64,000 nucleotides of DNA from NCBI RefSeq assembly GCF_022133705.1, contig NZ_JAKNHJ010000010.1:35657-99656 (forward strand), in the 5' to 3' direction. Under the pieces are notes generated by a model. It was not told the DNA's origin, did not search any database, and worked only from the letters and a program-made list of their open reading frames with translations. This DNA is from Varibaculum cambriense. Its GTDB lineage: Bacteria > Actinomycetota > Actinomycetes > Actinomycetales > Actinomycetaceae. A program made the translations under genes and the position numbers. Shown piece by piece: positions 5,910 through 63,902 of this stretch; position 1 is the first letter of the stretch; the number at the start of each line of letters is the position of its first letter.

Positions 5910-7811
5910 CTACTGCTTCCAGTAGTGACGCTGATCCACCAGCGCTTCCTCGTATTCTTTCCGAGCCTGCTGGGTGGATTCAATGCGCGAAACTTCCGGC
6001 ACCGCCACGTCCCAGTACGAACAGTTCGGCGGGTTCGGACCAAACAGGTTGGTCTCGATATGAATCATCACTGCCCGCTCAGATTTCTCCGCCTGGCGAT
6101 AGGCATCCCGGAACTCTTCGATAGTGTGCACTTTCAGCACTTTAATTCCCCAAGATTCCGCGTTCTTGGCGATATCTACCGGCAGTAGCTCCCCGTCCTC
6201 GTTATGGGGATTGCCATCACCCATCCGGTAGCGAGTTCCGAAACGCTGAGAGCCGTGAGACTCCGAAAGCGAACCAATCGACGAGAACCCGTAGTTTTGC
6301 AACAAAACATAGATAACCTTGATGTTTTCCTGCACCACCGTCGCCAGTTCCATCGGTAGCATCTGGTAGGTTCCGTCCCCAACGATTGCCACCACTTCCG
6401 AATCCGGCAACGCCATCTTGACCCCCATAGCCGCGGGAATCTCGTATCCCATGCAGCTAAAGGCATACTCTACGTGGTATTGCACCGGAGTCTTCGCTTG
6501 CCACAGGCACTGCAAATCGCCTGGCATCGACCCGGCGGCGTTAATCACCACATCGTTGTCGCCCATCATGTCGTTAAGAGCCCCGAACACCTCGGTTTGC
6601 GCCGGCAGCTCTTGGTCGTGCGCCCCGTAGCATTCGGCGGTCTTTTCGAACCAGTCTTCGCGCTCGCTGGCGATCTCGCGGCTGTAATCTTCGGATACCC
6701 GGTAATCCCCGAGTGCCTCTTTCAAAGCAGCCAGCGCCAACTTGGCGTCAGCCACCACCATTTCACCCGCGTGTTTAGCCGCATCGAAGGCTTTCACGTT
6801 GATGTTTACAAAGCGCACATCCGGGTTCTTGAACTGGGTGTGGGAAGCGGTAGTGAAGTCCGAGTAGCGAGTACCCACCCCGATCACCACATCTGCTTTA
6901 TCCGCCAAATGATTTGCGCTATTGGCACCGGTAGAGCCGACGCCCCCTACGGCGCATTCATGGTCATAGTTGATGGCGCCTTTACCGGCCTGGGTATCGG
7001 ATACCGGAATCCCGGTAGCGCTCGCCAAATCGCGTAGCTCCTGGGAGGCTTCCGCGTAGATCGTGCCCCCACCGGAAACAATCAGAGGACGCTTCGCCGA
7101 CTTAATAATCGCTGCCGCCCGCGCCATCTCGGTCTCAGATACTGCCGGGCGGCGTACATGCCAAACCCGCTTTTCGAACATTTCTACCGGCCAATCGAAG
7201 GCTTCGGCCTGTACGTCTTGCGGCATTGCCAGCACTACTGCTCCGGTTTCGGCCGGGTCAGTCAGTACCCGCATGGCGTTCATCAAGGACGGCATTAGCT
7301 GTTCGGGCCGGTTGATCCGGTCGAAGAAACGTGAGACACAGCGGAACGCATCATTAACGGTTACGTCCAAAGAACGCGGATCCTCCAACTGCTGGAGCAC
7401 CGGATCCGGGTAGCGGGTAGCGAACTGGTCAGAAGGCAGCAGCAATACCGGCACCCGGTTAGTGGTGGCCAGCGCCGCGCCAGTCACCATATTCAAGGCG
7501 CCCGGACCAATCGAAGTGGTAACTGCCAGCGTCTGCAGCCGGTTCTTGGCTTTAGCGAAAGCCGCGGCCGCATGGACTGCGCCCTGCTCGTTACGCGGCA
7601 TGTAGTATTCCATTACACCCCCATCAGGGGTGGAATCTAGTTCGTTTTGCAGCAGTGCCTGACCGATGCCACACACGTTGCCGTGTCCGAAAATCCCGAA
7701 CGTACCCGGGATCAGGCGGTATTCTTTGCCGTCACGCTCGGAATACTGGTTGATTAAGAAGCGGATTGTCGCCTGCGCGGTGGTTAGGCGAACGGTCTCA
7801 AATTTTGCCAT
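5910..7811 (-). CDS. iolD: 3D-(3,5/4)-trihydroxycyclohexane-1,2-dione acylhydrolase
   Basis: A 633-residue thiamine-diphosphate enzyme of the acetolactate synthase superfamily. It has an N-terminal pyrimidine-binding domain (GHGNVCGIGQAL, then TSIGPGALNMVTGAA), a central domain (PLIVSGGGTIYAEA) and the C-terminal ThDP/Mg site VGDGTYQM with LLQNYGF. In myo-inositol breakdown IolD opens the ring of trihydroxycyclohexane dione to 5-deoxy-glucuronate. Start chosen at ATG 7811, preceded by AAGGAGGA at 5 bases; the frame continues upstream into iolB but without a site. Last gene of the iolC-aldolase-iolB-iolD operon, 2 bases after iolB. Confidence 0.95.
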   Translation of the reverse strand: MAKFETVRLTTAQATIRFLINQYSERDGKEYRLIPGTFGIFGHGNVCGIGQALLQNELDSTPDGGVMEYYMPRNEQGAVHAAAAFAKAKNRLQTLAVTTSIGPGALNMVTGAALATTNRVPVLLLPSDQFATRYPDPVLQQLEDPRSLDVTVNDAFRCVSRFFDRINRPEQLMPSLMNAMRVLTDPAETGAVVLAMPQDVQAEAFDWPVEMFEKRVWHVRRPAVSETEMARAAAIIKSAKRPLIVSGGGTIYAEASQELRDLASATGIPVSDTQAGKGAINYDHECAVGGVGSTGANSANHLADKADVVIGVGTRYSDFTTASHTQFKNPDVRFVNINVKAFDAAKHAGEMVVADAKLALAALKEALGDYRVSEDYSREIASEREDWFEKTAECYGAHDQELPAQTEVFGALNDMMGDNDVVINAAGSMPGDLQCLWQAKTPVQYHVEYAFSCMGYEIPAAMGVKMALPDSEVVAIVGDGTYQMLPMELATVVQENIKVIYVLLQNYGFSSIGSLSESHGSQRFGTRYRMGDGNPHNEDGELLPVDIAKNAESWGIKVLKVHTIEEFRDAYRQAEKSERAVMIHIETNLFGPNPPNCSYWDVAVPEVSRIESTQQARKEYEEALVDQRHYWKQ

Positions 7812-54008: not shown

Positions 54009-54239
54009 TCAATCTTCCAGGCCAAGTTCCGCCTTCACTTCCTCAAGGGAGTAAGTTTTCGCTTTACCAGCGCGAATTTCTTCGACTTCGTTTAGTAAGG
54101 TGTACTCATAGAGCAACTGGTCAATGGAGGATTCAATAGCCTCACGAAGATAATACGACTTTGAGCGTCCAGTTAGGCGCGATAACTTATCAAGCTTTTC
54201 TGCAGTCGTATCGCTCATGCGAACCGAAGTAGCGACCAT
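54009..54239 (-). CDS. Orphan ribbon-helix-helix antitoxin-like protein
   Basis: A 76-residue protein. The N-terminal TSVRMSDTTAEKLDKLSRLT and GRSKSYYLREAIESSIDQLL form a ribbon-helix-helix DNA-binding fold of the RelB/CopG antitoxin kind; the acidic C-terminus ends VKAELGLED. Start at ATG 54239 after a strong AGGAGGGGG. No toxin gene follows within the 250 bases to rplN, so the partner is lost or elsewhere. Confidence 0.82.
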   Translation of the reverse strand: MVATSVRMSDTTAEKLDKLSRLTGRSKSYYLREAIESSIDQLLYEYTLLNEVEEIRAGKAKTYSLEEVKAELGLED

Positions 54240-54366
54240 TATTACCCCCCCTCCTTCCTCCAGCATAGCAAAATGACTACAAGTAGTCACCCCTTATTTT
54301 CCAGCTCATACCGAGGTAGCGTCCGGATTGGTTCTTATCTAAGCTACGCCCAGAGTACGCAGTCGC

Positions 54367-55095
54367 CTAGTTGTTTTCGGATTTTACTAGGCGGGTTACT
54401 ATTTGGCTGCGGCCAGAAAAGTTGGGGGTAATGATTGCCGCGTCCCATCTTTCCCGGTGGCGGGAAATTGCGGATAACTTGCTGCTCGGAACAGTTTCTA
54501 CGGTTGCTAGCTGGTAGCGGTATTCGTGTCCGGAAATATCGGTAAACACTACTTCGGAGCCGTCTGGCAGATCTTTGAGTCCTGAAAACTGCTGGTTGTC
54601 GGCACCATCGGCAATCACCAGATCCCCGCTGGCGGGATTGCCCCCATAGATGCTCGGGATTTTCGCGGTCGCCGCCGCATCGCCGCTTGCGATAATCGGC
54701 CAGCTGCGGTTCAGATCTGGGATCTGCAAGATCCCGGTTACCTCATATCCGGACAGGTTCACTGTCTCGAGGTAGGGGCTGGCACCGCCCGGGGCAGTGG
54801 TATCGGCAGTACCGCCCTGCCCCTTACCAGCTGCTTTCCCCGAGGACGCCCCGGATTCTTTCGCATTTTCCGGGGTTTGGGTAGCGATTACTCCCACCTG
54901 GCGGGAGCTGGGGATAACCTCCTGGGTTTTAATCAGGAGGCCATCTATTTCGCTATCACCGGTACGCCCCTGCCACCAGGAGTATCCCAGCAGCGCCACT
55001 AGCAGCAAGCTCAGCGCGATACAAATGACTTGTATCCACCGCACCCAGCGAGCCCGGCGGGTTTTACCCGCGGCGGCGATAACGCATCCAGCCAT
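54367..55095 (-). CDS. Sortase-like membrane protein lacking catalytic His and Cys
   Basis: A 242-residue protein: a membrane helix at ~21-38, a Gly/Ser/Thr-rich linker (~75-105), and a C-terminal domain (~115-238) that aligns by eye with class C sortases (GYEVTGILQIPDLNRSWPII, then IYGGNPASGDLVIADGADN, FSGLKDLPDGSEVVF, YRYQLATVETV, IITPNFSGRSQIVTRLV). Where the real sortase has SGHRG the sequence reads ADGAD, and where it has VTCTPY it reads ITPNFS, so His and Cys are both missing. It overlaps the giant surface protein by 32 bases and ends the pilus operon. It is therefore probably an inactive sortase relative with an accessory role, or a decaying gene. Confidence 0.7.
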   Translation of the reverse strand: MAGCVIAAAGKTRRARWVRWIQVICIALSLLLVALLGYSWWQGRTGDSEIDGLLIKTQEVIPSSRQVGVIATQTPENAKESGASSGKAAGKGQGGTADTTAPGGASPYLETVNLSGYEVTGILQIPDLNRSWPIIASGDAAATAKIPSIYGGNPASGDLVIADGADNQQFSGLKDLPDGSEVVFTDISGHEYRYQLATVETVPSSKLSAISRHRERWDAAIITPNFSGRSQIVTRLVKSENN

Positions 55096-58000
55096 AGACT
55101 GCTACCCCACAGATCATTAGGCCGAACAGGGTGAAGGGCAGGGTACCGACGCCTCCCGCCTTCGGCAGCTCATAGGGCTGGTAGTTCTTGACCGTGACCG
55201 GATGCTCGGCACTGCCTGGCTGTTCACCAGCCACGCCGGGAGCCGGCTTTTGGAATAGCTGTCCGTTCCAGGTGGCGGTGTAGTTGTCGGGAGTTTTCAG
55301 TTCCTTTACGAAGTATTCCGCTTCACTTAAGTCCGGGAACACAACTTTGCCGTTGTCAGTAGTCTTAACTACGCGCGACAGGTAATAGGTCTTCTCTCCC
55401 TGCTTGACCGTCTTATCACTGTCAGCTAGGCCTGCGAGGCCGACCTCCTGCAGCTTGTCGGCGCTGATCTGCTGGGACTGATCCGGGGAATACAACCCGA
55501 ATACCGCTCCAGCAAGCCCGTTTGTGCAGGCACCATCTTCGCCGCAGTTATCTCCATCTGCTTTAAACAGGTTGATTTCCCACTTGCTGCGGATGTTTAT
55601 ACCGATAACGGTAAGGTTTTCGCCAGAGTTATAGCTGAAGGAATATTCTCCCTGGTGTTCAACCGGGTTCTCAGTGCTGCCCGTGGCCACCTGGTACTTA
55701 GAGAACTTCGTTCCGTCGGTGGGAGGTAGCTCCGCCAGGGTGTAGCGTTCCCCGTTCTTCCACGTCCAGGTTCCCGAGGGACTGGCGGGTTTGCCTGCCA
55801 GGGCGGTCAGGGAAATCTTTTCCGAGGACGAGGCGCCTTTGGCTACCGGTACCTTCACCTCAATATAGGAGCGGCCAGCTTTCTTGAGGTTTTCGATCAA
55901 GGTTTTCTCGGTCATTTCTTCGGGGGTTAGTTTTTCCCCGGTGTAGACCACGAAGTTATATACCGTTGCCTTGCTTAGCTGCAACGGCTCCTTATTTTCG
56001 TCTTGTACCTGCTTTAGCAATTGCATTTCGGCTGGTACTTTCACCCCAACTTTGAGCGGGATGGCCTCTAAGTCCAAGTCTCCGGCTCCGGGTGCACGGT
56101 AGTTGTAGCCGAAAGTGTTCCAGGCAATGTCGCCCGGCTTGGGGTTTGCCCCACCGGCGATCTTGGCGTCAAAGCGTACCCGCAGGGAGGCGCCTCCCTT
56201 GAGGATATCGGTGCTGTCCTTCAAATTAACGCGCAGGGAACGGGAACTTGCCTTTCGTTCAGTTCCCCAATCGCTAGTGGCACTACCGTTCCAATCTTTT
56301 TCGGTGAACCCGATAGCTTTATCGGAGTATTCCACCGTGTATTTACTGGGATCTACTGCTGTCCAGGTTCCATTCGCGTCCTTAACCTCTACCGTCAGAT
56401 TGGGCTCATCCGCAAAACCTACCTTAAACTGTGATCCCCGCTCGGGGGCACCCGTAAAGGTGTAGTTATCGTTAGTTTGCGGCAGGTTATCGATCAGGGT
56501 GATACGCGGAATCGAGTCATCCGTATTGTTCTTCACCTCTAAGGTATAGGTGAATAATGAGCTTTGACCGGGCAGCGAAATATAGTTCTTCTCGTCCGTG
56601 GAAGTAACTTTGTTATCCGGCTTCGCCTTTTCTTCTACGCTCTTTATTGAGGAGGTATAGGCATCTTGGGCAATCGGCACAAACGCGTCAGCCTGTACGC
56701 TGGGGAGATTAGTCTTGTTCTCGCTAGCACACACGTCGCCTTTAGCATTGTCCTTCCAGCAATAATAGGGATTAACCGTAGAATCGGGCTGTCCCGGATC
56801 ATTAAGGTTTTCACTGGTAGTGGTGGATAGCTTCAGATCTTGAGTAGCGTTCGAACCATGCTTAAGAGCTCCCTGGTCGAAAGATTCGCCAATCGGAGTC
56901 ACATAGGCATTGTTGAACACCATCCGATAATCACCCGTTTGTTTCGGATTCTTGCTCGAAAGCTGCAAAGTAGCGGTGCCTTCCGGCAATAGGGGATTAC
57001 CCGGAACTGAATATCTTGTTTGCCCAGGGGTCTTTTGCCCATCGGTACCGGGAACAACCCGTACATTAAGCTGCAGCTTCCCGTCTTTCGAGGTGAGAGA
57101 CACATGGAACACGGTTCTATTCCCCAACACAGCCAGAGGCTCACCGTTGACTGTCAAAGTGTTTGTAGTCGAAAAATAAGCGGGATTCCGGTATCGAACG
57201 GTTACGCTCTGGGGGTTCCCCTGTGCGTCATATTTCCAGTCGTCGAGGAACGTAAGCAGCTGGTATCCTTCATCGCAGTCATTGCTTCCCCAGCCGCCAC
57301 CGCTAGTGTTGTCCAGCTTCGGAGGATGACAAGTGTAAGTAACCGTACCGGTAAAGACATAGTTGGGATCCAGACGGTCACTGATTACATAGTCGGTGAT
57401 CGGTTGTTTTCCGTCATTGTGGGCGGTTACTTCCCAAGTTAAAGTATCCGGGTATCCAGCGGCCTTGGGATCTTTAGTAGTGGTACCAGCCGCATTCTTT
57501 TTAGCGACTAACTTTTTAGAGACTCCCGGCAAGATTGCTCCGCGAGTCAGATCCACTTGGGAGGATAGCCACTGGGTATTATCGTCTCCACCTACAAAAC
57601 CCTTTTGGTTAGCGTTGTTGGTGTCAATTATCTGGCGATCCCCGTCATTGGCTGGTGCCTGCCCTAAGGGCTGTGAGGTGATCTCAATGTCGGGATTGAC
57701 TTGTATTTTTTGCCCCTGTTGATTGTCATAGGGCATAGCGATCTGGTTACGACTTAAATCTTCGGTTTTGACTTTTTCGGCAACTGCTACCAGGTAGCTA
57801 TACCCCACGGTTTCCCCGGGGTTCAAATAGTATTTATCCCGTTCGGCGTCATATCCCAGATTGGAACCGGCCTTAGAGTTATCTAGGCGGAAAGTTACAT
57901 GGCGCGGATTTTGCGCATCTACTATCGCCCGCAAAGAAGCTACTTTGGGTTTTTCTCCCGGGAAATCCACGGGAGTGTTTTCAGCGCTAGATCTCCAGGT

Positions 58001-61000
58001 TTTGCGGATTGGCAACCCTTCGTCTCGGGGCTGTTCTTCGGGGAATAGCCCGGTGTAATAGACGTCATCTCTGAATTCCAGCTTGATACCAATCCCATCT
58101 GGCACCGGTTTACCGGTATCGTAGTCTTTATAGGTGGTGCAGACGTCGTTTCCTTCTTCATTCTTGTGGCACTGACCATTTTTCATATATGACTGGTCAT
58201 CAATACCGGCAAAGAAATGGAAGCCTTCAGGCAAGACGTCTTGAATGTCATTAATGTACAGGCGCGATTCCCCGTCGTTATGCAAAACGTTATAGTAGCG
58301 CACATATTTGTACAGGTTAGTTTGTTCATCTTGCGCCGAGTTGGTGTAAGTAACCCGGCCGCTGGCAGTATCATCGGGTCGGAGTACGGTGTAATTATCT
58401 GAACCGCTGCTGGTACCGATACCGCCCCACGGATAACGGGTCTCTTTTTCGTACTTATATCGTTGTTTCGCAACTACCCCGGTGTCAGCTACGCCTTTTT
58501 GCAGGGTAGCTCCCGCTTTTCCGCCCAGGTAGTGGCTTACCGAATAGGAGTCATTCTTTACATGCCAAGTGTTAAATAGGGTGTCTGACTGGTATTTCTT
58601 GCGATAGTTATCCCAGTCGGCTCCCTCAGGTAGCTGCCAGGTTACATACATATATACCGAGCCGGATACTTCCAGTTGCAGATCCTGATCCCAAACAAGG
58701 TATTGCTGGGTGTCACTGGAAGAGGCATCGGCCGGGTTCGTATCGGTAATCTTCCAGTTCTTGAGGTCGCCGGCAGTGACCTTTAGCCCGTTTTGCCCCT
58801 CTGGAATCTCCAGGGATAACTGGTCTTTGGTCCAGGGTTTACCCGGCAAACTGGGGGGCAGCGCATCATATATGTCCTTGCCAGTTACTATAAAAGGATC
58901 ATCCCCAAACACTGACAGAGCCAGGCGATAGGTAACCTTCTTCCCGGCATTCAGGGGGCTTTGGCTTAGTAAAGAGTCTTCATCAAAAGTAGCGCCCCGC
59001 TTGGTGACTATCCGCTTGTCTGCCCCCAGCTTGGAGATACTCATCTCGGTCTTATCGGTAATGCTGTATTTCGGCGACTCGACTCCCCCAATATTTAGCG
59101 CATCGGGGTGCCCGTCTTTAACCTTGGTATATCCGGTCTTTTCCGGATCGGTGAGGGTCAGGTAGTCCACGCTAACCTTAGACGGGTTGGCAAAATCTTG
59201 GCTGGCCATATACCAATAGGTCGAGGTGGCGATACCCGCCCCGTTATCAAGTTTCTTCACTTCGATGCGATCGGCAATGAAGTCTTTGCTTGAAGAGGAA
59301 TCGCCTACCTTTTCGGTAGCACTGAAATGAACATTTTTATAAGTCCCTGGTTTATCTAACAGGTAATAATCTTGTCCGTCATAGTTGTATTTCTTCAGCC
59401 CTTGCAGATCCGGGTTAGTTGCGTTATCCCCTTTAACTGGCACTAACAGTACTTGCGCTCCCGAGAGCTTATCGGTAAAGGGCAGGGCGTTATATTCGGC
59501 TTTCCCGCCTTTACGTTCTAGGGAGAGTTGATATTTAACCACGGTTCCCACTGGAATTGGCTTTCCGTTTTGTTCTACCTTCTCATTTTTCACATAGGCG
59601 GCTTTTTTAACCTCGAAAGAGTTGACCGTAGTTACCGTATCTGGAACGTCTTGATCGTTCAGATTCACTTTGTTAGTGGTTTGCTGCTCGGTAAAATCTT
59701 TCCCGGCCATAAAGTCATCTTTAACGGTCGCCCTTACCACGTGTTTAATGCTGTCTCCACCGTAAATCACGTGGTTCGGTACTTCCCAAGCCACTTGATA
59801 GCGAGTAGCTTGCACTACTATCAAGTCTTTTAGGGCATCCTGCAAGGCGGCCGCAGTGCTATCAACTGTCTTAGTCGCTCCCGCCTGGGTAATCGCTATC
59901 TTCCCATCGGCTTGTTTCTCTAGTTTCAAATCTGCGGGCTTAGCCTTAGCGCAATCTAGATGCACCTGCCCCGTACCCTCTTTACCGCTGGTAGTGGTGT
60001 GTTTTGCGGGTACATAGTTTTCACAGATCTGGGCGCCGGTGATGTTAATCGTGAGGCCATCCCCGTCCTCACTAAACATTTTGGCCATTTGCGCGGGGGC
60101 AAGGTAGTAGGCTTCGGGCAGGTGATCGGCAATAATGCCTTCGTCATCCTTACCTTCTTTAATCTTCCAGGGGCCAGATCCCTTGTTAGTGGCAGTAATC
60201 GTAAAGTCAATGGGGTCGCCCCGATAGAAGCTTTGCCCTTTTCCGCCTTCGTGGGTCTTAGTTACCTCGGGAACCGGGCCTTGCATGGTCACCGGGTTGG
60301 TGACTGCTGCCTTAGATGAAGCGCGATCAGTGTGGGTGTACTCGGTGGTTGCCGCAAACTCATTGTGCAAATTGTAGGTTTGATTCGGCTTTGGATCCTT
60401 CACCAGCAAGAAGTTGTCACCAAACCGAATTTTTACATTTCGATCAACCAGATTTGGTTTATTCTGTCTTGCCCCCACATCGTAGGTAATTTTTAGAGTG
60501 CGCTTCGCAGGATCGAACTGGTAACTAAGGGAACTTAGGTAAATATTGGAACCGCGCAGGGCGAATAACGGGACTGTTTCACCATTATTATCAATATTTA
60601 AGGTTATATATTGGCCGTTGCTATCTTTGTCCCCTGGTCTGATTGTCCACCCTGGGATCTGGGTATACCAATCGCGAATTGAGCCAGTGTTCCCCACCTT
60701 CTTTAGGTATTCGGGGTTAAACTCCACCCCTTCGGGCAGGGTAAAAGTATCTACATAGGTAGAATCAACAGCGGGATCCTGACCAACTTTGGCTTTGGGC
60801 ATTCCCTCGGTGGTTACCGGGGTATTGCGGAAAGTGTAACGCAGGTTCTTAATATAATAGTTTCCGCTTTGCTGGTCATAGGCAATACTGGGGTCAGTCG
60901 CCGATCCCCAAACCACGTCTGGTATCGGTTTATCCAACCAATCAAGCGGGTCTTTGTTGAGCAGCTCTTTCTTAGCTTCATATTTTTGCCGAATAGTATC

Positions 61001-61750
61001 CCAAGTATTTTCCTGTACCTGGCAGCTGGGTTCTTGGCCTTTCTTGCCCAGTGCTGCTTTGTCCTCGGGAGTAAGTTCCTCGATCCAAACTTTCAGATCC
61101 CCACCGGCGGAAGTGGGAGAATCATGCTTGGCTTTCACCGGGAGTGTGAATGCATCCCCAATTTCAGAACCGGCAATCTCGATGTAATAGTAGCCAGCTA
61201 CCGCTTTACCGTCATCATCTTGCACCTGATTAAAGGTGTAGGGGTTCTTATCCCCCTCCGCCTGATAGTAGGTCTTGCCTACCTCCAGTTTGGTGTCAGC
61301 TTCCCCGCCCAAAACATAGCCGGGAGCGGCAGGGGGTTTTTTGGCGGTAAAGCGGAAATAGACCCGATAAACTTTGGCTTTAGCGGCTGCCGTGTTGGAG
61401 ATCCCGATGTTTTGGCTAAAGGCTTCCCCAGTCCAACGCTGGCTAACGTTCTCCGAGGTAATCGCCTCGGCCTTTTCAGTCTCGGGATTATCTTCGCCGG
61501 GCTGGGTATTTACTATCGCTACCTTTCCATCGCCGGCCTTTAACAGTTCAGTAGTTACCGTACCGGGTTCAACCTGGCAGGAGGTCGGCGCCCGCATCGG
61601 CCGCGAAACGTTAGTTGCCCCCAGATTATTGGCCTCTTTAATGCCTAAAGAGTAGGAAGGAATCGCCAGTAACAGCGTGGTTACCAGGAAAGAAAGCGCC
61701 GCCAGGATAGCTAGCAGCCGAGTGCGGTCTTTATAGAGTTGATTAAACAC
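55064..61750 (-). CDS. Very large pilus tip / surface protein with LPKAG sorting signal
   Basis: A 2228-residue protein starting at GTG 61750, overlapping the pilin stop by one base. Residues ~12-35 are a signal/membrane segment. The body is a series of beta-sandwich, isopeptide or DUF11-like repeats: near 497 (TKTHEGGKGQSFYRGDPIDF), 713, 903 (SISKLGADKRIVTKRGATF), 1408 (GVSKKLVAKKNAAG) and 1700. Two SpaA/Cna-B like domains follow at ~1905 (AEMQLLKQVQDENKEP) and ~2058 (WEINLFKADGDNCG). It ends with LPKAG at ~2193, a hydrophobic helix and RYRRRG. By size and operon position it is most likely a pilus tip adhesin; ligand unknown. The frame is uninterrupted over 6.7 kb. Confidence 0.87.
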   Translation of the reverse strand: MFNQLYKDRTRLLAILAALSFLVTTLLLAIPSYSLGIKEANNLGATNVSRPMRAPTSCQVEPGTVTTELLKAGDGKVAIVNTQPGEDNPETEKAEAITSENVSQRWTGEAFSQNIGISNTAAAKAKVYRVYFRFTAKKPPAAPGYVLGGEADTKLEVGKTYYQAEGDKNPYTFNQVQDDDGKAVAGYYYIEIAGSEIGDAFTLPVKAKHDSPTSAGGDLKVWIEELTPEDKAALGKKGQEPSCQVQENTWDTIRQKYEAKKELLNKDPLDWLDKPIPDVVWGSATDPSIAYDQQSGNYYIKNLRYTFRNTPVTTEGMPKAKVGQDPAVDSTYVDTFTLPEGVEFNPEYLKKVGNTGSIRDWYTQIPGWTIRPGDKDSNGQYITLNIDNNGETVPLFALRGSNIYLSSLSYQFDPAKRTLKITYDVGARQNKPNLVDRNVKIRFGDNFLLVKDPKPNQTYNLHNEFAATTEYTHTDRASSKAAVTNPVTMQGPVPEVTKTHEGGKGQSFYRGDPIDFTITATNKGSGPWKIKEGKDDEGIIADHLPEAYYLAPAQMAKMFSEDGDGLTINITGAQICENYVPAKHTTTSGKEGTGQVHLDCAKAKPADLKLEKQADGKIAITQAGATKTVDSTAAALQDALKDLIVVQATRYQVAWEVPNHVIYGGDSIKHVVRATVKDDFMAGKDFTEQQTTNKVNLNDQDVPDTVTTVNSFEVKKAAYVKNEKVEQNGKPIPVGTVVKYQLSLERKGGKAEYNALPFTDKLSGAQVLLVPVKGDNATNPDLQGLKKYNYDGQDYYLLDKPGTYKNVHFSATEKVGDSSSSKDFIADRIEVKKLDNGAGIATSTYWYMASQDFANPSKVSVDYLTLTDPEKTGYTKVKDGHPDALNIGGVESPKYSITDKTEMSISKLGADKRIVTKRGATFDEDSLLSQSPLNAGKKVTYRLALSVFGDDPFIVTGKDIYDALPPSLPGKPWTKDQLSLEIPEGQNGLKVTAGDLKNWKITDTNPADASSSDTQQYLVWDQDLQLEVSGSVYMYVTWQLPEGADWDNYRKKYQSDTLFNTWHVKNDSYSVSHYLGGKAGATLQKGVADTGVVAKQRYKYEKETRYPWGGIGTSSGSDNYTVLRPDDTASGRVTYTNSAQDEQTNLYKYVRYYNVLHNDGESRLYINDIQDVLPEGFHFFAGIDDQSYMKNGQCHKNEEGNDVCTTYKDYDTGKPVPDGIGIKLEFRDDVYYTGLFPEEQPRDEGLPIRKTWRSSAENTPVDFPGEKPKVASLRAIVDAQNPRHVTFRLDNSKAGSNLGYDAERDKYYLNPGETVGYSYLVAVAEKVKTEDLSRNQIAMPYDNQQGQKIQVNPDIEITSQPLGQAPANDGDRQIIDTNNANQKGFVGGDDNTQWLSSQVDLTRGAILPGVSKKLVAKKNAAGTTTKDPKAAGYPDTLTWEVTAHNDGKQPITDYVISDRLDPNYVFTGTVTYTCHPPKLDNTSGGGWGSNDCDEGYQLLTFLDDWKYDAQGNPQSVTVRYRNPAYFSTTNTLTVNGEPLAVLGNRTVFHVSLTSKDGKLQLNVRVVPGTDGQKTPGQTRYSVPGNPLLPEGTATLQLSSKNPKQTGDYRMVFNNAYVTPIGESFDQGALKHGSNATQDLKLSTTTSENLNDPGQPDSTVNPYYCWKDNAKGDVCASENKTNLPSVQADAFVPIAQDAYTSSIKSVEEKAKPDNKVTSTDEKNYISLPGQSSLFTYTLEVKNNTDDSIPRITLIDNLPQTNDNYTFTGAPERGSQFKVGFADEPNLTVEVKDANGTWTAVDPSKYTVEYSDKAIGFTEKDWNGSATSDWGTERKASSRSLRVNLKDSTDILKGGASLRVRFDAKIAGGANPKPGDIAWNTFGYNYRAPGAGDLDLEAIPLKVGVKVPAEMQLLKQVQDENKEPLQLSKATVYNFVVYTGEKLTPEEMTEKTLIENLKKAGRSYIEVKVPVAKGASSSEKISLTALAGKPASPSGTWTWKNGERYTLAELPPTDGTKFSKYQVATGSTENPVEHQGEYSFSYNSGENLTVIGINIRSKWEINLFKADGDNCGEDGACTNGLAGAVFGLYSPDQSQQISADKLQEVGLAGLADSDKTVKQGEKTYYLSRVVKTTDNGKVVFPDLSEAEYFVKELKTPDNYTATWNGQLFQKPAPGVAGEQPGSAEHPVTVKNYQPYELPKAGGVGTLPFTLFGLMICGVAVYGWMRYRRRG

Positions 61751-62889
61751 TATTTCGCCTCCCTATCTGCGCGGTTTTGCTTAGAATTGGTCGCGCTTTC
61801 CGATTTGAAATCACTGCTGCCTGCCGTCGCTACTTGCCGACGCCGCGCAGCAATTCCGCCTGCCCCTAAAACCATCAGCAAGGGGGCTAGCCATAAGTAA
61901 TTTAGATTCGCGCCCGTCTTTGATAACGGAGGACGCTTGGGGGGATTTTTGGGAACTAAAGTATTGGTAACTGTGAAAGCCTGGCCAATCTTTTCGTAGC
62001 TAACCGTGTAGGGGCTGTTTCCCAGCTGTTCGGCTACTGCCCAGCGATGTCCTTCGCTGTCTTCCCAACGGTAAGTCCAGTTATTTGCGTTGTTTAGCTC
62101 GATGGTTTGGAATAGTTTTTCGTCCCGCAAAATCTGTATTTTTACTGCTTTAGGACGCGCGGTTTGGTTGCCGCCGTCCTGCCAATGTTTAACCACCTGG
62201 TATTGCGCCGGCTTGGGCAGTACTTTTTCTAGCTTCGCCACTGCGTTTACGTCGTATTGCAGTTTTCCGTCAACTAGGCTCGGCACAGTAACTAGCGAGG
62301 GATTAAAAACATAGGTTTCCCCGCTGGCACCCGCATTGGTAAAGGGATCCGCCAGCAACAGATAAACCCCTACCTTCAGGTTATTAAAGGTGGCTTTCCC
62401 ATTGCTATCCGAGGTCGCCGTCGCCTCTGGCGCTACCTGGTCAGCATGGATATGGTTAGCGAGGTTGCCCGCGAAGTCCGCCCATTTACTGGCGTCAACG
62501 CTACCCGCGGGAATCGCCCCGCTTTTATCTTGAAAGTCATTCCACTTTAATGCTTGTAAATACTGCTGATAGGCCGGCAGTGCAGGGAAATGCCGCTTCA
62601 CCTCGGCTATCCGATAGGCGGAGACTTTCACCCCCGCTAAAGGCGCGCCCTCGTAGTGAAAATCGAGAGTGATAGTGCCTTTTGCGTTTTGATCAATCTT
62701 TTCTAGATTTACTAAATCCAGAGAGGTAGTGCCGGAGGATGCACTGGTTTCGCCACCAGTGCCTGAGGGACCAGCCGGGGGTGCAGCGTGCGCGGCGGCG
62801 GGAGTGAGCATCCCAATTCCCAGCAGCGTGGCCAAAAGCGTCGCAGCCAGCGTCCCTAATAAGCGGTTGAAACTAATTGCTTTGCTCAT
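61750..62889 (-). CDS. Major pilin, SpaH/EbpB family, LPxTG-like anchor
   Basis: A 379-residue protein. Signal peptide of ~35 residues (RLLGTLAATLLATLLGIGML, AHAA). A first domain (~60-215) contains GTITLDFHYEGAPLAGVKVS and FNNLKVGVYLLLADPF; a possible pilin-motif lysine lies near residue 220 (AKLEKVLPKPAQ). A Cna-B domain (~225-310) includes YQVVKHWQDGG and WTYRWEDSEGHRWAVAEQLG. The sorting signal is LSKTG rather than LPxTG, followed by a hydrophobic helix and ARRRQ, and then about 27 more residues (VATAGSSDFKSESATNSK...), an unusually long cytoplasmic tail. Its ATG overlaps the sortase stop (ATGA). It should be polymerised by the adjacent class C sortase. Confidence 0.88.
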   Translation of the reverse strand: MSKAISFNRLLGTLAATLLATLLGIGMLTPAAAHAAPPAGPSGTGGETSASSGTTSLDLVNLEKIDQNAKGTITLDFHYEGAPLAGVKVSAYRIAEVKRHFPALPAYQQYLQALKWNDFQDKSGAIPAGSVDASKWADFAGNLANHIHADQVAPEATATSDSNGKATFNNLKVGVYLLLADPFTNAGASGETYVFNPSLVTVPSLVDGKLQYDVNAVAKLEKVLPKPAQYQVVKHWQDGGNQTARPKAVKIQILRDEKLFQTIELNNANNWTYRWEDSEGHRWAVAEQLGNSPYTVSYEKIGQAFTVTNTLVPKNPPKRPPLSKTGANLNYLWLAPLLMVLGAGGIAARRRQVATAGSSDFKSESATNSKQNRADREAK

Positions 62890-63902
62890 AGTGCTTCCGT
62901 CTTTCCTCCCGCTTGATTTCGGCGACGCCGCAGATGCGTCACGGTGATCGCCACAATGATTCCTAACACTGGCACCGAGATGGCTAACGAAACCATCACC
63001 GGATCCATAGCGACCGCATCGGCAGCCACATAACCGGCGTCCCCTCCATAGGGAACCCGGTGACCGCGAACGAGTAGCCGGTGGGTATTAATCGCATAGG
63101 GCGTGCAGGTTACTAAAGTCGCGTAGTCTTGCCCAGGAATAATTTTTAGATTCGATAGTTCTTTGGGTTCGACTACCCGGATTTGGTCAACTTGATAAGC
63201 CAGGTCACGATCTAGTACGTGTAACACGAAGCGATCGCCCTCCTCTAGCTCGTCAAGATTGGTGAATAGTTTGGCACTGGGCAATCCTCGGTGCCCAGAC
63301 AAAATCGTGTGGGTGCCGGCTCCGCCGGTAGGTAGCGAACTGCCGGGCACATGCCCTGCCCCTACCTGTAGTACCGAGTCCTCGGTGCCGTGGTAGATGG
63401 GTAGATCTACCCCTAGTTTTTCGATTTCGATATGACCCATCATCCCGGTTTTCCCCACATCTAATAGGGAAAGGTAGCGTTGCATTTGCGAGTGGGACAG
63501 ATGGTAGCGCGCCGGGTTGGACAGCAGTTCCCGGTTATAGGCTTCGGCCTCATCCCAGGTCTGCTGGATTTCTCCGGGGCGCATCTTATTTACGGTTTGG
63601 GTGTATTCCGCGATTGCGCGGCCTTGTTGCAGGGTGTTCCAGTAATTACTGATAGTGGGGTAAAAGAACACCAACATGCCGCCCAAGAATACTGCTATGA
63701 AGGCAAGATCGGGGATTCGTGATCGCTTAGCACCCTCCGGGGTGCCGGTTGCTTGGCCAGATGCGGAGGCCGAGTCCTGACGGCGCGAAGTTCCCTGAGC
63801 ATCCAGGTTCTGTTCTTTGGGGTCAGAATCGGATTTTAGGTGCCGTTGATCCAGGTCATCAGCGGCCGAAGCCACTTGCTGATCTACCGGGAGCGGTTGC
63901 AC
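62886..63902 (-). CDS. Class C (pilin-polymerising) sortase
   Basis: A 338-residue membrane enzyme starting at GTG 63902 after AGGAAA. An unusually long polar N-terminus (~1-60, Ser/Asp/Gln-rich) precedes the first membrane helix (~66-82). The catalytic domain has GHIEIEKLGVDLPIYHGT, His204 in LSGHRGLPSAKLF, Cys266 in TLVTCTPYAINTH and Arg275, all present. A second helix near residues 305-325 and RRRR end the protein, the class C topology. The usual Asp-Pro-Phe/Trp lid motif is not seen before the catalytic domain. It should cleave LSKTG/LPKAG signals and build isopeptide-linked pili. First gene of the operon, with a 24-G tract 72 bases upstream. Confidence 0.94.
   Translation of the reverse strand: MQPLPVDQQVASAADDLDQRHLKSDSDPKEQNLDAQGTSRRQDSASASGQATGTPEGAKRSRIPDLAFIAVFLGGMLVFFYPTISNYWNTLQQGRAIAEYTQTVNKMRPGEIQQTWDEAEAYNRELLSNPARYHLSHSQMQRYLSLLDVGKTGMMGHIEIEKLGVDLPIYHGTEDSVLQVGAGHVPGSSLPTGGAGTHTILSGHRGLPSAKLFTNLDELEEGDRFVLHVLDRDLAYQVDQIRVVEPKELSNLKIIPGQDYATLVTCTPYAINTHRLLVRGHRVPYGGDAGYVAADAVAMDPVMVSLAISVPVLGIIVAITVTHLRRRRNQAGGKTEAL

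Follow-up and report, generated by a model that had tools for sequence, protein, structure and literature searches.

A pilus sortase that is dead in several lineages, its death going with a changed tag on its likely substrate

The pilus operon at the end of a 64,000-nucleotide stretch of Varibaculum cambriense DNA (contig NZ_JAKNHJ010000010.1, positions 35,657 to 99,656; the window hereafter) closes with a gene whose product has the shape of a sortase and none of its catalytic residues, and which, as orthologues and substitution patterns confirm, selection has kept intact. This pseudo-sortase is one case of a pilus sortase that is dead in several lineages, in which death goes with a change in the sorting signal, or tag, of the likely substrate, a small pilin of the basal type. 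An earlier note on the same DNA had described a membrane-anchored sortase-like domain that had lost its catalytic His (within ADGAD) and Cys (within ITPNF), and had read it as a retained pseudo-enzyme rather than a product of simple decay. The gene and its parts, all on the minus strand, are these:

54367..55095, minus strand: pseudo-sortase coding sequence, 242 amino acids, final gene of the pilus operon (open reading frame, profile scan, orthologues, purifying selection)
54973..55047, minus strand: N-terminal membrane anchor, residues ~17-41, borders set by eye (hydropathy)
54370..54783, minus strand: sortase-fold core, residues 105-242
54604..54606, minus strand: codon at the catalytic His place, Gly164 (alignment, residue check, DNA)
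54424..54426, minus strand: codon at the catalytic Cys place, Pro224 (alignment, residue check, DNA)
54403..54405, minus strand: codon at the catalytic Arg place, Gln231 (alignment, residue check, DNA)

The reading frame (54367-55095, minus strand) opens with an ATG and runs for 242 codons, and its product belongs to the sortase superfamily by profile, fold and membrane anchor. It matches the Pfam Sortase family PF04203 with 28.5 bits (cut-off 26.6; 30.1 bits in the whole-genome scan) over residues 123-215, a match that ends short of the Cys place, and for its core AlphaFold predicts the fold of a sortase rather than an unrelated one. In profile comparison the protein aligns with the class C sortase SrtC (probability 93.8%, E 1.8e-7), and in a single comparison it shares 27% identity with an intact accessory sortase (E 6e-18). 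The anchor stands out in the hydropathy plot (Kyte-Doolittle, window 19), with a peak of 2.38 at residues 18-36; past residue 60 the best window reaches only 0.69. A sequence search of the PDB returned 17 chains at E up to 10, of which 4tqx (E 0.14) is the one sortase; matches to CEACAM-type molecules and to one GTPase-activating protein make up the rest and were set aside as chance-level.

As a Cys transpeptidase the same protein does not qualify, since alignment and residue check place Gly164 at the catalytic His, Pro224 at the catalytic Cys (the Cys of the TLxTC motif being absent) and Gln231 at the catalytic Arg, in line with the earlier claim for His and Cys. Its only cysteines, residues 4 and 25, lie before and inside the membrane anchor, and the core is free of Cys in all six full-length dead proteins checked from the window's family; with no Cys in the outer domain, a displaced Cys/His pair elsewhere in the pocket is excluded. 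Nor does the protein fall into a named class: the class C profile NF033745 gave no row for it at E up to 10 with the HMMER filters on (an orthologue, L030, scores 21.7 bits against a cut-off of 160, and the SrtC of the operon 274.6), and the class D profiles gave 19.1 and 21.8 bits, under their cut-offs of 165 and 140. Among the class-specific NCBIfam models, none scores above cut-off with the window protein, nor with two intact accessory sortases (L102 and L033); the intact enzymes may therefore form a class that as yet has no name.

Retention was assessed among 213 genomes of the window's taxonomic family, of which 19 gave matches to a single-sequence search (E up to 0.01) and 29 to a profile search (E up to 0.001), the weaker profile matches being mostly ordinary sortases with a TC motif. 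Full-length orthologues with the same Cys-to-Pro substitution end pilus operons in five genomes, namely one of the same genus (G002), Gleimia europaea (G118), Actinomyces urinae (G127), Arcanobacterium sp. SUG972 (G079) and Actinomycetaceae SUG2173 (G081), and the dead orthologues at the operon end were read in stretches L027, L028, L029, L030 and L031. Counting the window, six genomes from three genus groups have a full-length frame, and the TPxxSG loop is invariant among them. A short form of the pseudo-sortase is present in G164, with no SrtC recognised beside it. Scanning genome contigs with the DNA pattern for W-D-x-T-L-[FY]-T-P, which misses the window's own sequence and that of G002, gave four matches, all in carriers already known (Gleimia europaea, Actinomyces urinae, Arcanobacterium sp. 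SUG972 and Actinomycetaceae SUG2173).

The ratio of nonsynonymous to synonymous substitution rates (dN/dS) is 0.086 for the core between the window and G002 (95% interval 0.041-0.143), 0.119 for the whole gene in the Gleimia pair (0.059-0.210) and 0.075 for the core in the Arcanobacterium-type pair, G079/G081 (0.033-0.137). For the active SrtC of the same three pairs, in that order, it is 0.256, 0.082 and 0.209. The dead gene is thus more constrained than SrtC in two of three pairs, and overall selection holds it about as tightly as its live neighbour. Pairs of dead genes outside the window's family gave 0.037, 0.065, 0.181, 0.117 and 0.239, rough values in that synonymous divergence (dS) exceeds 1 in some pairs.

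These figures bear directly on decay, in which catalysis is gone and the open frame has simply not yet been broken. The gene can break: G004 holds a 110-codon fragment by the ribosomal cluster that also neighbours the window's operon, with no SrtC-pilin operon in the stretch read, G005 gives a weak, shorter match of 43 residues that is probably another such copy, G646 and one of the two copies in G993 are short or broken, and the Pfam score of the window protein is barely above its cut-off. Low dN/dS in three within-genus pairs, with SrtC looser in two of them, has nevertheless already largely refuted decay; the six full-length frames with an invariant loop speak against it as well, and we regard it as quite improbable. 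The earlier view of a kept pseudo-enzyme is supported, and relatives with the same substitution beside pilin operons do exist; as to broken relatives, the window's family has full-length constrained frames, and truncated or interrupted copies (G004, G646, G993) occur as well. The G646 copy is a remnant of 70 codons (L185, 6131-6340), and in G993 the second of two copies carries an in-frame stop (L169, 1882-2499).

Intact counterparts were found further afield. Searched with a profile of the dead family, a phylum sample of 396 genomes gave one strong match outside the window's genome (G332, E 5e-29), the next standing at 6e-11. The G332 protein has His, Cys and Arg all present, comes from a host in another class (which we take to be Coriobacteriia), and is encoded at the end of an operon for a signal peptidase, a giant pilin, a main pilin, SrtC and a small pilin. 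Within the window's own taxonomic family, G082 carries an intact accessory sortase at the same operon position. Searches centred on the G332 protein matched 2/65, 16/346, 16/140, 6/138, 1/3, 1/1 and 29/396 genomes, in sets that overlap, some of the weakest rows of the last being other sortases (L174, L177). A plasmid search with the intact relative returned 13 records, all of them class A sortases (26-32%), which were rejected.

Thirty-six accessory sortases could be read fully or nearly so (35 alignment rows, plus L184 with residues assigned by eye): the complete set of His, Cys and Arg is present in ten, and the remaining 26 have neither the His nor the Cys. The alignment shows no row in which one of these two is lost and the other kept, with some uncertainty over the His column of L133, and the Arg place is still Arg in 7/25 dead alignment rows. 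What stands at the Cys place goes by clade: the window's family has Pro, the largest clade besides it has Phe, and the others have Asp, Gln, Val, Tyr, Ser or Glu (the Glu of L165 was assigned by eye, its column being a gap in the hidden Markov model alignment). Such replacements could mean that catalysis was altered rather than lost, a hydrolase or ligase using another nucleophile, and the Ser and Asp of other dead clades (L133, L124) and four proteins with a Cys two residues upstream lend themselves to this; the window's clade, however, has Pro and a core devoid of Cys, and the His place is Gly, Ser or Val, so that we consider altered catalysis highly improbable.

The remaining genes of the window's operon, which reads SrtC, small pilin, giant pilin, pseudo-sortase, are the following:

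55064..55095, minus strand: 32-base overlap between the pseudo-sortase start and the giant pilin end, from which translational coupling is inferred
55064..61750, minus strand: giant pilin/adhesin, 2228 amino acids, C-terminal LPKAG-type sorting signal, SpaA and DUF11 domains
61750..62889, minus strand: small (basal-type) pilin, 379 amino acids, Cna_B domain
61912..61926, minus strand: the small pilin's unusual sorting motif LSKTG, followed by ANLNYLW (position by eye)
62886..63902, minus strand: intact class C sortase (SGHRG, TLVTC; NF033745, 274.6 bits)

Both the overlap and the intact class C sortase had been claimed before, and the frame coordinates with the DNA, and the 274.6-bit match, respectively, bear them out. 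The window ends where the contig does, so that anything upstream of SrtC falls outside it; in the closest relative (G002, stretch L038), the region upstream of the same genes encodes a main pilin whose signal is LPGTGG, and also a divergent signal peptidase that keeps its Ser and Lys motifs.

The sorting signal of the small pilin differs with the state of the enzyme. In all ten intact operons it is LPQTG-like and followed by a Trp (LWWPV in seven, LKWPV in one, TWYLVPP or LWHLVPP in two). The 23 dead operons with a readable small pilin show TGD or TSD in 16, TGM in one, and LSKTG, LTKTG or LKETG in six, these last being the six dead operons of the window's family. A Trp stands three or four places after TG in 10/10 intact versus 2/23 dead operons; such a Trp combined with Pro or Ile as the second residue of the motif is seen in 10/10 versus 0/23. 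The combined pattern was first seen in 17 operons (7/7 intact, 0/10 dead) and held in the ten found later (3/3 and 0/7), with the qualification that the Trp criterion was worded after the first 17 and that five of the seven later dead rows come from the Cys-to-Phe clade, which the earlier set had already included. Taking one row for each clade, as drawn by hand, Trp alone separates 8/8 from 1/9 and both criteria 8/8 from 0/9; the Fisher p-values and clade counts ignore relatedness. The TG position was moved to the next T-G of the same string in L122, L125, L166 and L184, and without these four shifts the Trp contrast is 7/10 versus 2/23 (p 0.0008). Left out of the count were L032, L163 and L164 (basal pilin unreadable), L169 and L185 (broken), and the fragments L025 and L026.

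As a control we took the gene directly upstream of SrtC, present in 25/29 stretches examined, which carries LPxTGG (in one case LPASGG) in 7/7 intact and 13/18 dead operons, the five without it (L127, L131, L159, L160, L161) all belonging to the Cys-to-Phe clade. The pili of these five may be built differently. With that clade set aside, intact and dead operons thus differ in the signal of the small pilin and not in that of the main pilin, and because it is the small pilin's signal that differs, this basal pilin is the likely substrate of the accessory sortase. The same contrast weighs on the idea of a decoy or brake, a dead domain that would bind the sorting signal, compete with the active sortase and limit the number or length of pili: the conserved fold, the anchor and the operon-end position overlapping the giant pilin would suit such a role, but a basal signal that differs where the enzyme is dead argues that it is no longer recognised in the same way, and we consider a decoy unlikely.

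We then asked how often catalysis was lost, using a tree of 34 accessory sortases with the catalytic columns removed and a tree of SrtC from 29 operons (both without L032 and the later L184; the SrtC tree also without L123, L130, L163, L164 and L168, whose stretches have no SrtC). The accessory-sortase tree needs five changes between intact and dead, or two on the starred branches alone. The SrtC tree rejects a single dead clade (p-value of the approximately unbiased test, p-AU, 5.1e-5) and forces at least three changes on starred branches, with the intact L102 and the dead L121 as sisters (100/99). Judging by these trees, the enzyme seems to have been inactivated repeatedly among related bacteria, and gene exchange between operons could explain part of the disagreement between them. 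Taken further, exchange of a cassette (basal pilin plus accessory sortase) between operons might replace repeated loss altogether. In its favour are the conflict between the trees, the p of 0.08 in the one-clade test on the accessory gene, and signs that single genes move, in that the giant pilins of G079/G081 have a dS of 0.13 versus 0.65-0.89 for their neighbours. Against it, the accessory tree places the dead Cys-to-Phe clade within a starred group that also holds the intact L033, L126 and L168, the Cys substitutes differ by clade, and the pairing of signal and enzyme itself is left unexplained except as functional; cassette exchange is possible, if on the doubtful side. The giant pilins concerned (L030, 7161-11261; L031, 7512-11639), set beside SrtC, the main pilin and the pseudo-sortase core, suggest a recent exchange of the giant pilin gene alone.

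As to a parallel loss of the signal peptidase, such a gene was found in 21/26 stretches examined, and among the 21 both the Ser and the Lys motif are gone only in Gleimia (L028/L029), so peptidase loss is generally not tied to sortase loss (L124, for Lys, and L126, for Ser, missed one simple regular expression each). In Gleimia, where the dead sortase stands beside a peptidase without Ser and Lys, two enzymes of one pilus operon look dead; these signal-peptidase-like genes (L028, 16137-16646; L029, 3355-3864) are under purifying selection, with a dN/dS of 0.116. Within the window's genus the operon seems to occupy two chromosomal sites, one beside the ribosomal cluster (the window, and a fragment at 7549-7785 of L025) and one near a 226-residue gene in G002 (L027, 8862-9542), a neighbour shared by L026, with a weak fragment at ~7116-7248. 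Just downstream of the window's operon lies a 93-residue open reading frame (54009-54290, minus strand), which we take to resemble a ribbon-helix-helix antitoxin; a frame near the Gleimia pilus operon (L029, 2995-3273) has a similar C-terminus.

Several observations pull the other way. The AlphaFold model rests on five sequences; in four dead proteins without His (L121, L163, L134, L164) a Cys sits two positions upstream of the catalytic place, and L133 has its uncertain His column. Taken by itself, the accessory-sortase tree keeps a single loss possible (p-AU 0.08), and the starred branches yield two to three independent contrasts, all neutral or in the expected direction and too few for a sign test. 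The basal pilin of the dead L030/L031 still has TG-x-x-x-W, without the Pro, and the absence of LPxTGG in five rearranged Cys-to-Phe operons means that the basal signal is not always the sole change. Constraint is also uneven: the whole-gene dN/dS between the window and G002 is 0.190, the linker being looser, the dead pair L131/L158 is weakly constrained (0.462), and the decayed copies described above belong here too.

The earlier note had suggested that the pseudo-enzyme could hold pilin intermediates, recruit the active sortase or occupy the sorting signal; the relatives point to something more specific about its origin. With these points weighed, we lean somewhat towards an explanation in which the ancestor was a second pilus sortase, outside class C, that probably ended assembly by linking the basal pilin, and through it the complete pilus, to the cell wall. 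Where the enzyme is intact, that pilin bears a distinctive signal, typically LPQTG-x-LWWPV; where the sortase lacks His and Cys, the pilin is without this signal (here LSKTG, elsewhere mostly ...TGD). With catalysis lost and the tag different, another sortase must do the anchoring, presumably a housekeeping enzyme; the genome does have a class E sortase gene at another place (230.9 bits), and in Corynebacterium diphtheriae the housekeeping sortase reads the LAFTG motif of the basal pilin SpaB. Since the dead protein is kept under selection, it should have a second, non-catalytic job, and our preferred guess is docking at the membrane, the protein most likely being a docking or handling factor that, while the pilus is assembled, would hold either the class C sortase or the basal pilin. 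What the data show is the fold, the lost residues, the selective retention, the operon position and the co-variation with the basal signal, whereas the substrate, the transfer of anchoring to a housekeeping sortase and the docking role are inferred.

More generally, the odds look about even that there is a class of pilus-base sortase specific for LPQTG-x-LWWPV, in which catalysis was dropped several times within the phylum, always together with a change of tag to one readable by a housekeeping sortase, and a second, non-catalytic assembly job kept the dead protein under selection. Such a class would be undescribed so far and would have two separable jobs. Intact and dead versions in otherwise similar operons offer a natural separation of catalysis from another sortase function; co-variation alone predicts an enzyme-substrate pair, the accessory sortase and the LPQTG-x-LWWPV basal pilin, and two testable questions arise, namely what anchors the base of these pili and what pilus sortases do beyond cutting and joining.

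Known systems offer partial parallels. The titles and opening lines of abstracts of a mostly non-subscription literature yielded no description of a dead, inactive or pseudo-sortase family like this one, and gave the same result for the pili of these genera. Basal pilins with aberrant motifs do have precedent: in Corynebacterium diphtheriae, SpaB has LAFTG versus the LPLTG of SpaA and SpaC (PMC12445094), and like LAFTG the LSKTG of the window lacks Pro. Class C and class B pilin sortases (SrtC; Spy0129, PMC3019223) differ from the window protein, which is without catalytic residues. For a kept dead enzyme, the nearest worked example is SipA of the Streptococcus pyogenes FCT pili, a signal peptidase devoid of its Ser and Lys; pilus polymerisation requires it, and it was proposed to bind and orient a key pilus component at the surface (PMC4049620). 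Both are pilus-operon proteins with an enzyme fold and lost catalytic residues; unlike SipA, the window protein has the fold of a sortase, the second of its operon, and has intact versions in equivalent operons of other species, and in G002 (L038) the signal peptidase of the operon keeps its Ser and Lys motifs. The closest known case in this literature is the second sortase of pneumococcal pilus islet 2, SrtG2; most pneumococci carry it as a pseudogene, and oral streptococci are predicted to have a functional version (PMC3178606). Compared by description, both are second sortases of a pilus operon with functional and lost versions; the loss of SrtG2 is that of a pseudogene, whereas the window's family keeps full-length frames, without His and Cys, under purifying selection.
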